From Oceanidesulfovibrio marinus (GTDB lineage Bacteria > Desulfobacterota > Desulfovibrionia > Desulfovibrionales > Desulfovibrionaceae): a stretch of DNA of 64,000 nucleotides. Position 1 is the stretch's first letter; every line of letters begins with the position of its first letter. Of this stretch, positions 17,705-23,549 are shown in pieces. The notes beneath the pieces are model-generated. The model ran no database searches and was not told the origin of the DNA. It was given only the letters and a program-made list of their open reading frames with translations. Made by a program: the position numbers and the translations under genes. The DNA lies in contig NZ_CP039543.1 of NCBI RefSeq assembly GCF_013085545.1, positions 3,193,322-3,257,321 of the forward strand, written 5' to 3'.

Positions 17705-20668
17705 CTACCACTCGACAGGCAGGCGGACGGTCTGCTTGGCTTTGTTGGTAAAAAGAAGGTAGCCGTGCTCGCGGCCGTGGAGGTAGAGGTCGCGGGTGAG
17801 CTCGACGTCTTTGGTGCAGTATTCGATGATCTCGTCAAGGCGGCCTTCCTTCCACCAGGCCAGGGCCTGGAGGCCGTCGGCGGTTTTCTGCGCGTCCAGA
17901 GTGGCGGCGCCGAGGGCGTCGAGGGAGAGCCGGTAGCCGAGCCGGCGGCGCACCTCCTGGAGCATGTCCAGGGTGGGCAGGGAGTGGAGATCGAGCCCAC
18001 CGGCGTAGGGGCCGAGCACCGCGTAGTCGAAGCGCAGGATGTTGAAGCCGATGATGAGGTCGAGCTCCTGGAGCCGGTCGAACATGGCGGGCAGCTCGTC
18101 CTCGCGGTAGGCGACGTACTCGTCCGTGTCCGAGTAGTAGACCACGCAGCAGGAGACGCGCATGTCCTTGGCTTTGTGCCAGCCGCCCACCTCCTGGGCT
18201 GAAAGCTGCGTTTCCACGTCTAAAACAGCGTACCGTAATTGCGCTTTGGGAATGTCCGCTGTGACGGCGACGCCGTCGATAGAGGTCTCTTCCTTCTGGT
18301 CCGGCAGTTGCGGCAAATATTGCGGTCCAATCTCTGGCGGCGGTGCATCCTGAAGCGCGCCGAGCAGAAACAGGGCCGCGGCCTTGTCGATGGGTCGGTT
18401 GCCGGAGCCGCACTTGGGCGAGTGCACGCAGGACGGGCAGCCCAGATCGCACGGGCAGGAGGCGACGACGTCCAGGGTCCGCTCCATGAGCTCCTCGGCC
18501 TTGGCGAATGCCAGCCGCGTGAGGCCCACGCCGCCGGGTGCAGCGTCGTACACGAACACGGCCGGCAACCCCACCTGCGGGTGCATGGGCGTGGAGATGC
18601 CGCCCAGGTCGTTGCGGTCCGTCATGACGATGAGGGGCAGGATGCCGATCATCGCGTGCTCCAGAGCATGAATGCCGCCCATGAAGTGGTAGAACTGATC
18701 TTCGGCAAGCCGCTGCACGGACGTGGGAATTTCGATCCAGACCCCTTCCGTTTCAAAGACCATAGGCGGCAGGTCCAGGGGCACGATGGTCATGAGCGTG
18801 CCGCCCTTCACCTTGCGTTTCTCGTACCCCGTAACAAACTCCGTAACCCGCAGCTTGCCCCGGAAGATGCGCGTTCCCCAGACCTTCCCGTAGTCGTAGA
18901 CTTCGAGTATTTCGGTATTTTTTGAGCCGCGCACACGAGTGTAATAGTCCACGCGAGCCGGTGTAACGGTTACGGTTCGCGCACCGAGATCCAGCTCCTT
19001 GACCAGATAGGTCTTGCCGCGATGCAGGTACACGGCCCCTTTGTGGGTCTCGCGGAAGGCGCGGTGCTCATCCACCAAGCCCACGGACTTGCCGTCCGGC
19101 AGCGCTTCGATGCGGTAGGAGGCCCCGGCCCCGCGCAGGTCCACCTCCCGATGCGGTTGCTTGCGGCGGGAGAGGATGCGGTCGCCTTCTTTGGAGCGCA
19201 GCAGCCGCCCCTCGGCCTCCATGGCCGCGGCCACCTGTCGCACCTCGGGCACCTGCAGCCAGGGCTCGCCCTCGGTTAGGGGCAACTCGGCCGCGGCGCA
19301 GTCCAGGTGCCGGGCCAGCAGGACCTCGTTGTACGGGTTGAGCACGGCCGATTCGGGCGGCCGCTCGAAGAAGTCCTCGGGGTGGCGCATGAAATATTGA
19401 TCCAGGGCGTCTTCCTGAGCCACCAGGACCACGGCCGACTCCTTGAGGCTGCGGCCCACGCGGCCGCCGCGCTGCAGGGTGGACATGATGGTGCCCGGAT
19501 AGCCCACGAGAATGCACAGGTCGAGGGCGCCGATGTCGATGCCCAGCTCCAGGGCCGAGGTGGAAATAACCGCAAGCAGCTCGCCGGAGGTCATGCGCGC
19601 CTCGATCTCGCGCCGCTCCTCGGGCAAAAAGCCCGCGCGGTAGGCGCTGATGCGATCCTTGTACGGGCCGGCCTTGTCCTGCGCCCAGAGAGAGACGAGC
19701 TCCGTGAGCTTGCGCGACTGGCAATAGACGATGGTGCGCAGGTTGCGGGCCAGGGCGGACTTCAGGAGCATGATCGCGGCGTGGGCCGCGCCCTCCAACG
19801 GGTCCAGAAATACGAAGTGGCGTTTCCCTTGCGGTGCGCCGGATTCCGTAATGGTCGCGACATCGTGGCCGGTCAGGCTCTGAGCCAGCTCCCCGGGGTT
19901 GGCCACCGTGGCGGAGCAGAAGATGAAGGTGGGCGATGCCCCGAACCGCGCGGCCACGCGATTCAGCCGGCGGAAGACCTGCGCCATGTGCGAGCCCATC
20001 ACCCCGCGGTAGGTGTGCACCTCATCCACCACCACAAAGGAGAGCCCGGCCAGGAAGGTGGACCACTTCTCGTGATACGGCAGCAGCGCCAGGTGCAGCA
20101 TCTCCGGGTTGGTGAGCAGCGCATGCGGCGGGTTCTCGCGTATCTTGCGGCGCGCGTAGTCGCTCACGTCGCCGTCGTAGATGGCGGCGCGCGGGCGGGC
20201 CGACTCCGGCCAGCTGGAGGTCAACTCGTTGAAGGCCTTGAGCTGGTCCTGGGCCAGGGCCTTGAGCGGGAACATGTACAGGGCGCGGGCGTCCGGATCG
20301 TGGAGAAAGCGCTCCAGCACCGGCAGGTTGTAGACCAGGGTCTTGCCGCTGGCCGTGGGCGTGGCCACCACCACATGGCGGCCGGCGCGGATCAGGTCCG
20401 TGGCGTGCACCTGGTGGGCGTAGAGCGCGGGTATGGAGCGCGCTGCGAGCAGGTTCTCCACGGCGCGAGGCCACGGCCGCACCGGCTGGGCGAACTCGGG
20501 CTCCCGGCCAGAGAGGATGCGGTGGTAAACCACCTGGGAGCCGAGCCGCGGCGAAGACTTGAGGGCGTCCACATACTCGTCCACAGAGCCGCTGGGCAGT
20601 TCGTCCTGCGGATCGCCGGCACCGAGGAGCGGCGCCATGACCTGGTCAAGTATTCGTCGTCCGGCCAT
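17705..20668 (-). CDS. MrfA-like DEAD/DEAH helicase fused to an MrfB-like 3'-5' exonuclease domain
   Basis: The 987-residue protein has three parts. A superfamily 2 helicase core shows Walker A ATPTASGKT (102-110), DEVH (215-218), FCSATVANP and the motif VI stretch QRGGRVGR. A DUF1998/MZB zinc-binding domain has cysteines at about 738, 740, 744, 747 and 753 (CPCDLGCPSC..CGSGN). A C-terminal RNase H-fold exonuclease domain (811-987) shows DxE (D817, E819), a second aspartate (GFNILRFD, D881) and YxxxD (Y950, D954). In Bacillus subtilis, MrfA (YprA) and MrfB (YprB) are separate proteins that act together in mitomycin C repair. Here both activities sit in one chain. The gene lies 3 bases after a two-component regulator gene. 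Confidence 0.88.
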   Translation of the reverse strand: MAGRRILDQVMAPLLGAGDPQDELPSGSVDEYVDALKSSPRLGSQVVYHRILSGREPEFAQPVRPWPRAVENLLAARSIPALYAHQVHATDLIRAGRHVVVATPTASGKTLVYNLPVLERFLHDPDARALYMFPLKALAQDQLKAFNELTSSWPESARPRAAIYDGDVSDYARRKIRENPPHALLTNPEMLHLALLPYHEKWSTFLAGLSFVVVDEVHTYRGVMGSHMAQVFRRLNRVAARFGASPTFIFCSATVANPGELAQSLTGHDVATITESGAPQGKRHFVFLDPLEGAAHAAIMLLKSALARNLRTIVYCQSRKLTELVSLWAQDKAGPYKDRISAYRAGFLPEERREIEARMTSGELLAVISTSALELGIDIGALDLCILVGYPGTIMSTLQRGGRVGRSLKESAVVLVAQEDALDQYFMRHPEDFFERPPESAVLNPYNEVLLARHLDCAAAELPLTEGEPWLQVPEVRQVAAAMEAEGRLLRSKEGDRILSRRKQPHREVDLRGAGASYRIEALPDGKSVGLVDEHRAFRETHKGAVYLHRGKTYLVKELDLGARTVTVTPARVDYYTRVRGSKNTEILEVYDYGKVWGTRIFRGKLRVTEFVTGYEKRKVKGGTLMTIVPLDLPPMVFETEGVWIEIPTSVQRLAEDQFYHFMGGIHALEHAMIGILPLIVMTDRNDLGGISTPMHPQVGLPAVFVYDAAPGGVGLTRLAFAKAEELMERTLDVVASCPCDLGCPSCVHSPKCGSGNRPIDKAAALFLLGALQDAPPPEIGPQYLPQLPDQKEETSIDGVAVTADIPKAQLRYAVLDVETQLSAQEVGGWHKAKDMRVSCCVVYYSDTDEYVAYREDELPAMFDRLQELDLIIGFNILRFDYAVLGPYAGGLDLHSLPTLDMLQEVRRRLGYRLSLDALGAATLDAQKTADGLQALAWWKEGRLDEIIEYCTKDVELTRDLYLHGREHGYLLFTNKAKQTVRLPVEW

Positions 20669-20671
20669 GTC

Positions 20672-22048
20672 TTACGGATGGGCCGAGATCTTGTACTTTT
20701 TGAGCTTATACTGGAGCAGGCTCTTGGAAACGCCCAGGAGCTCCGCGGCCTTGACCTGGACAAAGTCGCTGCGGACCAGGGCGCGGCGCACCAGGGCGGC
20801 CTCGATCTTCTCCAGAGTGTCGGACAGGTCGAGCTTGACCGGCAGCAGGTCCACGGCGGATTTGAACTGCGCTTCCTCGTCCTTGATCTCGGGCGGCAGG
20901 TCGTCCACGCCGATGGTGTCGGAGCCGGCGAGCACCATGCAGCGCTCCACCACGTTCTCCAGCTGGCGCACGTTGCCGGGCCACTCGTAGCCCATAAGGT
21001 AACCCACGGCCTCCGGAGAGAAGACCTTGGGCTCGATCTCGTTCTCCTTGGCGTATTTCTGGGCAAAGTGGGCGGCCAGCAGTGGAATGTCCTCGCGCCG
21101 TTCCCGCAGGGCGGGCATCTCGATCTGGATGACGTTGAGGCGGTAGTACAGATCCTCGCGGAACGTGCCGTTCTTCACGGCCTCGGGCAGGTCCTTGTTG
21201 GTGGCGGCCACCAGGCGGATGTCCACGCTGATCTGCTCGGTGCCGCCCACGCGCTCGAAGCTGCGCTCCTGGAGCACGCGCAGGAGCTTGACCTGCATGT
21301 CCTGGGAGAGCTCGCCGATCTCGTCGAGAAAGAGCGTGCCGCCGTGGGCCAGCTCGAACCGGCCGCGCTTTCGCGCCACGGCCCCGGTGAAGGAGCCCTT
21401 CTCGTGGCCGAAGAGCTCGCTCTCCAGCACGCCTGGGTTGAGCGCGGCGCAGTTGACCGAGATGAACGGCCCGCTATCGCGCGTCGAGGAGAAGTGGATA
21501 GCCTTGGCTACCAGCTCCTTGCCCGTGCCGGACTCGCCCGTGATGAGCACCGTGGCCTTGGAGGGGCCGGCGCGGTCGATCATGGCCAGGACGGTCTGCA
21601 TGACCTTGGAGTTGCCGATGATCTGGTGCTTGCCGTAGCGCAGGCTCAGGCTTTCCTGCAGCACGCGGTACTGGCGCTGGGTCTCGGCCATCTGCGAAGC
21701 CTTGCGTACGGAGAGCAGCAGCTCCTCGTTGGCGAAGGGCTTGGTGATGTAGTCGAAGGCGCCCAGCTTCATGGCCTCCACGGCGCCTTCGATGGAGCCG
21801 TACGCGGTCATGATCATCACCGGGATGTAGGGGAAGTTCTTTTTGATGTGGTCGAGCACCTGCTGCCCGGTGAGCTTGGGCATCTTCATGTCGGTGATGA
21901 CCACGTCCACCTCGGACTCATCGAGATAGGCGAGAGCGGTCTCGGGGTCGGAGAGCGCAGTGACGGAGTACCCCTCCTCACTCAGCAGCGCTTCGAGGAT
22001 GAGCACGTAGTTGGGTTCGTCGTCGAGACAAAGGATATGCGTAGACAT
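20672..22048 (-). CDS. NtrC-family sigma-54-dependent response regulator
   Basis: This 458-residue protein has a receiver domain (phosphoacceptor D53 in VVITDMKMP) and an AAA+ sigma-54 activator domain. The latter has Walker A GESGTGKE (170-177), a GSFTGA loop (217-222, a conservative variant of GAFTGA that contacts sigma-54) and a GGTLFLDEIGEL Walker B. The C-terminal Fis-type helix-turn-helix (about 430-450) would bind upstream enhancers. The sensor kinase gene lies 19 bases upstream and the helicase gene 3 bases downstream. The signal and targets are unknown, and I found no convincing sigma-54 promoter in the window. Confidence 0.93.
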   Translation of the reverse strand: MSTHILCLDDEPNYVLILEALLSEEGYSVTALSDPETALAYLDESEVDVVITDMKMPKLTGQQVLDHIKKNFPYIPVMIMTAYGSIEGAVEAMKLGAFDYITKPFANEELLLSVRKASQMAETQRQYRVLQESLSLRYGKHQIIGNSKVMQTVLAMIDRAGPSKATVLITGESGTGKELVAKAIHFSSTRDSGPFISVNCAALNPGVLESELFGHEKGSFTGAVARKRGRFELAHGGTLFLDEIGELSQDMQVKLLRVLQERSFERVGGTEQISVDIRLVAATNKDLPEAVKNGTFREDLYYRLNVIQIEMPALRERREDIPLLAAHFAQKYAKENEIEPKVFSPEAVGYLMGYEWPGNVRQLENVVERCMVLAGSDTIGVDDLPPEIKDEEAQFKSAVDLLPVKLDLSDTLEKIEAALVRRALVRSDFVQVKAAELLGVSKSLLQYKLKKYKISAHP

Positions 22049-22067: not shown

Positions 22068-23549
22068 TCAGGCCAGGGGCAGGCGGATCTGGACGTGGGC
22101 GCCGCCTTCGGGCCCGTTCGCCAGGATGAGTGCGCCGCCGTGGCTTTCCACGATGTTCTTGAGGATGGTCAACCCGAGCCCCGTGCCGTTGTCCTTGGTG
22201 GTGAAGAACGGGTCAGTGAGCTTGTCCAGGGAGTCCTCGTCAAAGCCTGGCCCCGTATCCGTGAAGGCGATGTTGAGCTGGCCTTCATTCTTTTCGGCAT
22301 GGACGTAGATGGTGCCGGGTCCTTCCATGGCCTGCATGGCGTTGGTCAGGATGTTGTAGAAGGCGCGGTACAACAGGTCCTTGTCTCCGCTCACCATCAG
22401 GCTTCCCGGCTCCAGGTGGTAGTCCTTCTTGACCTCCACCTTGTTCTTCTCGCACTCGGGCTCCAAAAACACAAGCGCCTGTTCGAGGAGCTTGCCCACG
22501 TCCACAGGCTCGCGCTTGCTCTCCCTGGGCCGGGCGTAGTCCAGGAAGTCGTTCACCGTCTGGGAGAGCCGCTTGGACTCGTCATAGATGGCTTTGAGCA
22601 TGCGCGCCTGGAGGTCTTCCTTCGAGCTCGTCTTCTTGAGCAGAAGCTCGGCGCTGGAGCGGATGATGCCCAGGGGGTTGCGGATCTCATGGGCGATGCC
22701 GGCCACCATCCGGCCCATGGAGGCGAGCTTCTCGCTCTGGTGCAGCTCGCGCTCCAGGCGGTTGCGCTCCTTGATGCGCTCTGCGTTGGCGCGGTCCACC
22801 TTGCGGATAATCGCAAGCAGCATAAGAAAAAGACCAAGGGAGCTTAGCAAAGACGCCGCAATGATAACGCGCTGGAACCGCAAAACAGTCGTATAGTCAC
22901 CGGAGATGTCCTGGCGTAGCTCCAGCACTCCGATAAGCGGACCGCGCTTGCGCTCCGGGCCCACCAGGTCGTCCTCCATGCGCAGAGGGTACACGGTGCG
23001 CAGCACCACGGAGTCGTCCTCCACGTCCAGCATGAAAATGCCCCACCACTTGGAGATGGTAGAGTGTATCTCGAAGCTCTTGTCCAGCGACTTGATGCTC
23101 CGCTGCACCTTGTCGTCGGCCATCTCCTTGTTGCCCACCTCCTTGCGGTCTATGGAGTAGCTCACCGCGCCTTCCAGATCGTAGATACGCAGCGAACGGA
23201 TGTTCAGGCCGCGGGTGGAGGACTCGATGGTGCGCTCCAGCCTGTCGTACTGCGCCTCCTGCGAAAGCTCGATGGAACCGAAGCCAATGAGCGTAGGCAG
23301 AATGAACCGCCGGTAGATCTGGTGGTTCAGGTTTTCGGCCACCAGGGTGGCGAACTGCTCCTGCTTGTCGAGCAGTGTCTGGCGCGCGGAGTTGGCGATG
23401 ACCACGGAAAGCACGAGCCCCGTGGCCAGGATGAGCACGAGCGAGGAGATCGAGAGGATCTTCGTGAATCCAAACGTTGTGCTAAAGGAGTCGCCCGGGT
23501 CGGTGTGGTTCGTGTTGTTCTGCATGGGGCCTGGCGGACGCTTCGGCAT
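22068..23549 (-). CDS. Membrane sensor histidine kinase (NtrB/ZraS-like)
   Basis: This 493-residue kinase has membrane helices at about 30-52 and 228-248 enclosing a periplasmic sensor domain of about 175 residues. A short coiled linker, the phosphoacceptor His287 (GIAHEIRNPLG) and a HATPase domain (NILTNAMQAM, DTGPGFDE, GTGLGLTI) follow. No PAS domain is obvious. It should phosphorylate the adjacent NtrC-type regulator. Neither possible start (ATG 23549 or 23525) has a good ribosome site. A hairpin at 23559-23585 sits directly upstream of the first. Confidence 0.9.
   Translation of the reverse strand: MPKRPPGPMQNNTNHTDPGDSFSTTFGFTKILSISSLVLILATGLVLSVVIANSARQTLLDKQEQFATLVAENLNHQIYRRFILPTLIGFGSIELSQEAQYDRLERTIESSTRGLNIRSLRIYDLEGAVSYSIDRKEVGNKEMADDKVQRSIKSLDKSFEIHSTISKWWGIFMLDVEDDSVVLRTVYPLRMEDDLVGPERKRGPLIGVLELRQDISGDYTTVLRFQRVIIAASLLSSLGLFLMLLAIIRKVDRANAERIKERNRLERELHQSEKLASMGRMVAGIAHEIRNPLGIIRSSAELLLKKTSSKEDLQARMLKAIYDESKRLSQTVNDFLDYARPRESKREPVDVGKLLEQALVFLEPECEKNKVEVKKDYHLEPGSLMVSGDKDLLYRAFYNILTNAMQAMEGPGTIYVHAEKNEGQLNIAFTDTGPGFDEDSLDKLTDPFFTTKDNGTGLGLTILKNIVESHGGALILANGPEGGAHVQIRLPLA

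Follow-up and report, generated by a model that had tools for sequence, protein, structure and literature searches.

A single gene in a 64,000-nucleotide stretch of DNA (the window) from a bacterium related to sulfate reducers raises two questions. Does it encode a natural fusion of a helicase with an exonuclease, and are the two parts the Bacillus subtilis proteins MrfA (YprA) and MrfB (YprB) in one chain or a different pairing? An earlier note on this DNA read positions 17705-20668 as an MrfA-like helicase joined to an MrfB-like exonuclease. The span is correct, and the gene sits on the minus strand, with its ATG at 20668, its stop at 17705, and 987 codons. As that note proposed, a helicase of the YprA/MrfA family and a DnaQ-fold exonuclease form one natural chain, an arrangement common among the relatives of the host; the designation "MrfB-like" proves too strong.

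Domain architecture

The order of domains, an SF2 helicase, a cysteine-rich MZB zinc domain, and a DnaQ-fold exonuclease, is borne out by Pfam and by the relatives of the protein (Table 1). The first RecA-like domain carries the Walker A motif ATPTASGKT, starting at aa 102, and the DEVH motif, starting at aa 215. Motif VI, QRGGRVGR, starts at aa 399 in the second, and most helicase motif residues are invariant in an alignment of 17 full-length rows. The linker segment aligned to aa 763-811 ranges from 35 to 128 residues among the aligned rows. Judged by its sequence, the exonuclease half carries the complete DEDDy motif set (D-x-E, D, and Y-x3-D). The residues named previously (D817, E819, D881, Y950, and D954) are found where they had been placed and are kept in every one of the 29 relatives. 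A structure prediction, suggested as a way to see how the domains are arranged, gave the exonuclease domain alone a pLDDT of 95.5, whereas the full-length model (pLDDT 82.5, pTM 0.71) does not fix the mutual orientation of the domains.

TABLE 1 Features of the fused gene and its upstream context, in window coordinates
Feature	Position	Strand	Basis or remark
Fused helicase-exonuclease gene, 987 aa	17705..20668	-	One frame, no internal stop
RecA-like domain 1 (DEAD, aa 83-255)	19904..20422	-	Pfam
RecA-like domain 2 (Helicase_C, aa 303-405)	19454..19762	-	Pfam
Winged helix (WHD_HRQ1, aa 443-513)	19130..19342	-	Pfam, 36 bits (cutoff 27)
MZB/DUF1998 zinc domain (aa 668-747)	18428..18667	-	Pfam, 79.4 bits (cutoff 24.2)
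Cysteines C738, C740, C744, C747, C753	18410..18457	-	Five of five kept in 29/29 relatives
Linker, flexible part (aa 791-809)	18242..18298	-	Model pLDDT < 50
DEDDy exonuclease domain (aa 812-987)	17708..18235	-	RNase_H_2, phrog_403, model, fold matches
Exo I motif D817-x-E819	18212..18220	-	Kept in 29/29 relatives
Exo II D881, within GFNxxRFDY	18026..18028	-	Kept in 29/29 relatives
Exo III Y950-C-x-x-D954, tyrosine type	17807..17821	-	Kept in 29/29 relatives
NtrC-type (sigma-54) response regulator (context)	20672..22048	-	3 nt upstream of fused gene
Histidine kinase upstream of regulator (context)	22068..23549	-	Neighbor annotation

Conservation of the fusion

The window's own loci (L001 and L039) were excluded before one-frame arrangements were counted. 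Both halves lie in one frame in all 29 relatives L002 to L030, which are the best-matching loci of a 59-genome search (the window itself, L001, provides a 30th row), in 28 of 29 further loci of the phylum, and in 76 of 80 loci from named genomes. The latter are the best 80 of 531 relatives, with titles of the Desulfovibrio or Desulfobacter type or the unplaced "Deltaproteobacteria" and "Proteobacteria." Three of the four misses among them are frames that run off the contig (L081, L094, and L097), and at L128 the halves are in different frames. The fused form is also carried by a Nitratidesulfovibrio relative (L080). Some match was found in 56 of the 59 genomes, several of these being distant helicases only; both halves share one open frame in 46 of the 58 related genomes that remain when the window's own is set aside.

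In a sample of 297 genomes of the phylum, the exonuclease profile matches 95, of which 85 have strong matches; the 10 with weak or fragment matches only were left out of the latter figure. Of the strong-match genomes, 80 have the exonuclease in the same open frame as a full helicase, as judged by equal open-frame length in the exonuclease and helicase searches. The two occupy separate contigs in G350. G106, G262, and G309 have a fragmented helicase, the second half of which shares its frame with the exonuclease. G285, the sole genome of its kind in the sample, has the exonuclease alone, with no helicase of this type found.

Compared with the same-genus locus L002, dN/dS is 0.071 for the helicase, 0.096 for the linker, and 0.075 for the exonuclease, low values that indicate purifying selection acting on the two halves within a single frame. 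Compared with the more distant L003, the respective values are 0.35, 0.77, and 0.37, with much synonymous change. The earlier note had named a frameshift joining two genes as the finding that would overturn it. With 29 of 29 relatives fused, the catalytic residues intact, and both halves under purifying selection, the fusion is natural and a frameshift or assembly artifact is ruled out, as is a rare oddity by the fused state of nearly all strong-match genomes of the phylum. The one-chain helicase-exonuclease is a confirmed observation.

A natural fusion could serve merely to co-express an exonuclease that acts independently, e.g., on RNA or short DNA. The variable length of the linker and its low-confidence stretch would fit such a role, as would the existence of solo copies: the exonuclease is present with no match to a helicase of this type in G285, G019, and G030 (the last genome 64% complete), suggesting that it may act alone. 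However, the single frame seen in 80 of 85 strong-match genomes, with the solo-only state confined to G285 in the phylum sample, makes this explanation improbable.

Genomic neighborhood

The gene for an NtrC-type response regulator immediately upstream is likely in the same operon as the fused gene. In a survey that covered 0.7 to 1.6 kb upstream of each locus and left out L033 to L062, the regulator is the immediate same-strand neighbor in 16 of the 29 relatives; two more have it at distances of 690 and 1196 nt. At the named-genome loci, it accompanies a few of the Desulfovibrio type and is mostly absent from those named Desulfobacterales. Downstream, truA is placed tail to tail with the fused gene.

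These surroundings bear on the idea that the protein is an anti-phage defense helicase-nuclease, as in the YprA branches of DISARM, Druantia, and ARMADA, and not a repair enzyme. YprA helicases do recur in defense systems, according to the available part of PMC12458937, and members of the exonuclease family occur on viral contigs. Nevertheless, the fused gene is kept widely across families, and the four neighbors compared with Pfam are the two-component pair, an aminotransferase, and truA, with no other defense-type gene among them. The PADLOC matches listed (25 of 51) cover helicase stretches only. A primary role in defense is accordingly given little credence.

The helicase

The best solved relative of the helicase is B. 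subtilis YprA/MrfA (PDB ID 6znp; E value of 2.7e-150 over aa 56-750), with which it shares the SF2 core and the zinc domain. It has the features that define the YprA/MrfA family, namely, DEAD and Helicase_C domains with SF2 motifs and an MZB/DUF1998 domain with its cysteines, and scores 724.7 bits with TIGR03817 (DECH_helic), below the curated cutoff of 874.1. In contrast to the fused protein, MrfA is a chain without an exonuclease and falls in a different clade. A 70-row tree, built by a quick method, contains a fully supported split between the fused helicases and the B. subtilis MrfA side, which holds 27 helicases with an MrfB-type neighbor and 6 without one. Constraining the fused rows to group with B. 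subtilis MrfA carries a penalty of 268 log units and is rejected by the AU test with a P value of 7.8e-35, which flatters the result because the tested group was chosen with the tree already in view. A single clade of fused helicases is not rejected in the 70 rows (P value of 0.5), several fused rows of which have an odd amino acid composition. In a more careful 36-row tree, the fused helicases form one group with support of 92/92, just below the program's mark for strong support; the Tsukamurella and Gloeobacter rows of this tree have long branches and an unsure placement. Phylogeny thus assigns the helicase and B. subtilis MrfA to different YprA clades.

In the 70-row tree, the fused helicases are joined by seven that lack an exonuclease; the five of these included in the 36-row tree are placed beside the fused clade there. 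This placement is compatible both with loss of the exonuclease and with a pre-fusion state, either of which these proteins may represent. Close unfused kin are found at L155 to L159, L198, and L163, none of them with an MrfB-type gene in the sequence covered (1.1 kb downstream for L163). The helicases of L153 and L154 fall on the fused side of the 70-row tree and on the MrfA side of the 36-row tree. The listed rows show one full-length helicase of this type per genome (126 rows from 126 genomes), at most three candidates having been scored in each genome.

The exonuclease

The C-terminal domain matches an exonuclease family, as had been predicted. RNase_H_2 (Pfam ID PF13482) scores 20.7 bits in the whole protein, below its cutoff of 22, and 25.9 bits, above it, when the C-terminal piece is searched alone; operonic MrfB-type genes score 99 to 134 bits. 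All 30 fused-exonuclease rows match both RNase_H_2 (best E value of 1.7e-10) and phrog_403, "DNA polymerase exonuclease subunit" (best E value of 5.5e-16), which rules out a chance domain match. The window's domain scores 57.1 bits with phrog_403, whereas one of six operonic MrfB-type proteins has no match to it and the other five score 19 to 36 bits. Among the matches listed, the nearest solved folds to the exonuclease model are the exonuclease regions of family B polymerases (Z score of 15.2, rmsd of 3.5, 167 residues). The absence of MrfB (PDB ID 8un9) from the 50 matches listed of either fold search shows nothing either way. T7 polymerase appears in a profile search of the exonuclease with a nonsignificant E value of 0.094. 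Designed TPR proteins, found in a phmmer search of the exonuclease piece against the PDB (best E value of 1.1e-7), were taken for chance matches, since one 22-residue stretch is matched repeatedly at 4 to 6 bits each.

Comparison with MrfB accounts for the partial standing of the "MrfB-like" label: the DnaQ fold and RNase_H_2 hold, and the class does not. MrfB shares with the fused domain the DnaQ/RNase H fold class, the RNase_H_2 family, and the 3'-5' exonuclease class. However, as described in the accessible text of PMC11194089, B. subtilis MrfB is a DEDDh enzyme with a TPR part and an N-terminal insertion, encoded by a separate gene, whereas the fused domain is DEDDy, spans about 176 residues, and reaches the protein end. 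The tyrosine of Exo III occupies, in 29 of 29 relatives, the position four before the last Asp at which a DEDDh enzyme has His. No Pfam TPR is found in the fused protein; among seven MrfB-type genes scanned, two have a TPR above the Pfam cutoff. In an hhalign comparison, the fused exonuclease matches a set of 24 MrfB cores, picked by the HN..D pattern and so DEDDh by construction, with a probability of 13% and an E value of 5e-4 (0.06% for an unrelated control); motifs I and II line up and the last motif does not. By counting of residues, not structural alignment, the position of the MrfB wedge residue Leu113, six beyond the first Asp, is taken by Ser823.

Against the profile of the fused exonucleases, four solo proteins from viral contigs score 76 to 87 bits and a cyanobacterial plasmid protein scores 51, versus -1.5 to 16 bits for six MrfB-type proteins. 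The MrfB profile gives 19 and 16 bits for two of the viral-contig proteins and less than 5 for the remaining two. The mobile-element searches gave remote relatives only (1 plasmid record, 8 phage records, and 4 viral contigs). The fused exonuclease thus looks closer to the phage proteins named "DNA polymerase exonuclease subunit" than to MrfB. The phrog_403 subunits and the family B proofreading domains resemble it in sequence, fold, and tyrosine-type active site but, unlike it, have no zinc domain-bearing helicase attached to them. Since the fused domain passes RNase_H_2 and weak cross-matches connect MrfB-type proteins with phrog_403 and viral proteins with the MrfB profile, the fused exonuclease and MrfB may have a distant common descent.

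Unfused helicases and stand-alone exonucleases

In the phylum sample, an MrfB-type gene adjoins 29 of 45 unfused full-length helicases; six of the 29 were used to build the search profile and match by construction. A 30th neighbor flagged by the scan, at L167, was dropped: it lies on the opposite strand, lacks the motif, and reaches 28.7 bits from three weak pieces. HN..D, the DEDDh mark, is readable as a text pattern, without alignment, in 28 of the 29 genes, the last being cut by a contig end. The exonuclease gene lies upstream of the helicase in L153 and L154 and downstream in the others; in L160, L161, and L166, the MrfB-type domain follows the end of the helicase, as part of an overlapping frame of greater length. 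Among the 16 unfused helicases without such a neighbor, those of L162, L169, and L188 lie at most 0.2 kb from the end of the sequence.

Solo exonucleases of the fused type are encoded at L173 (6609-7268), L175 (6667-7236), and L176 (2715-3320), in genomes in which no such helicase was found (one of them 64% complete). L174 (5367-5930) is an extra solo copy in a genome that also carries the fused one. The window's own genome encodes a stand-alone MrfB-type RNase_H_2 exonuclease (L031, 1369-2298; contig 1 near 3760870), which matches the 24 MrfB cores with an hhalign probability of 97.8% but scores 25 bits against the whole MrfB profile. It has a tyrosine in the last motif (YN..D) and, by eye, a helix-hairpin-helix-like N terminus. 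The gene is divergent from one whose protein contains MCGRFG and is presumably of the SRAP/YedK type. The L031 protein might be a partner of the helicase. On the haloarchaeal plasmids L208 (1948-5927) and L209 (1783-5810), a large "RNase H-like" gene is found just upstream of a YprA-type helicase; its last motif is YC..D, and it is close to neither the fused nor the MrfB profile.

A true mrfA-mrfB fusion would require that an ancestral MrfB lost its TPR part and changed its His to Tyr on joining the helicase; the product would perform the mitomycin adduct repair of MrfAB. The shared fold class and the Pfam family, matched by the isolated piece, are in line with this scenario, as are the mention by Bell et al. 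(PMC12458937, in the part available) of YprA helicases fused to MrfB homologues and the statement in the accessible portion of PMC11194089 that MrfB is structurally nearest to DEDDy polymerase domains. It is nonetheless unlikely: the exonuclease appears distant from MrfB by profile and closer to the exonuclease subunits of phages, the helicase falls in another clade, and the MrfB-type gene stays separate beside 29 of the 45 unfused helicases. The DEDDy active site, the lack of a TPR, the profile distance from MrfB, the phrog_403 match, the helicase clade, and the operonic MrfB genes elsewhere argue for a separate pairing. The fused protein is therefore, with reasonable though not high confidence, a single-chain DNA repair machine in which a YprA helicase bears a tethered DEDDy 3'-5' exonuclease, in parallel to the pairing of MrfA with MrfB.

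Proposed mechanism

The activities of the two halves and their direction are predicted by analogy with MrfA, MrfB, and DEDD enzymes. MrfA is a 3'-5' helicase, according to the text available of PMC12458937, and MrfB is a 3'-5' exonuclease, as stated in the accessible part of PMC11194089. A YprA-family helicase probably tracks single strands 3' to 5' and, in the fused protein, would open up or strip the DNA where it is damaged or nicked. The flexibly tethered C-terminal exonuclease would then remove the freed 3' strand: as the helicase runs along its strand, the exonuclease might shorten the 3' end left behind or clear the displaced strand. Family B polymerase exonuclease domains depend on their hairpin (PMC11194089, same portion), and an exonuclease without a wedge may rely on the helicase for single-stranded ends. 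Direct coupling of unwinding and degradation in one chain is the obvious reading and is predicted here, with a putative role in the repair of bulky or cross-linked DNA. The source of the exonuclease may have been a small stand-alone family similar to polymerase proofreading domains, with members on viral contigs.

Relation to known systems and significance

WRN, a RecQ helicase with an N-terminal DEDD exonuclease, likewise joins a 3'-5' helicase to a DEDD exonuclease in one chain; it is a different fusion, and the likeness is in function only. The general architecture of the protein described here is already known from the preprint of Bell et al. (2025), one clause of which mentions fusions of YprA helicases to MrfB homologues (PMC12458937, in the part accessible). 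The same part does not name the lineage or the exonuclease class of these fusions, nor does it contrast them with operonic forms. A literature search whose coverage took in few subscription papers returned nothing that describes such fusions in this lineage, assigns the exonuclease to the DEDDy class, or contrasts it with operonic MrfB.

Calling the C-terminal domain MrfB could mislead, because this family of helicases seems to have acquired a different exonuclease partner from one lineage to the next. The one-chain enzyme fixes the two activities at 1:1, so direct measurement of how unwinding is coupled to strand removal should be easier than with the two-protein MrfAB. More tentatively, YprA helicases may have gained a DEDD exonuclease partner on three or more separate occasions: DEDDh MrfB encoded by a downstream gene, the product of an upstream gene (L153, L154, and the haloarchaeal plasmids), and a C-terminal DEDDy domain from a phage proofreading-type family, part of a single chain across much of Desulfobacterota. 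Such repeated pairing, if true, would mean that this repair route operates by unwinding and 3'-5' degradation as one functional unit.
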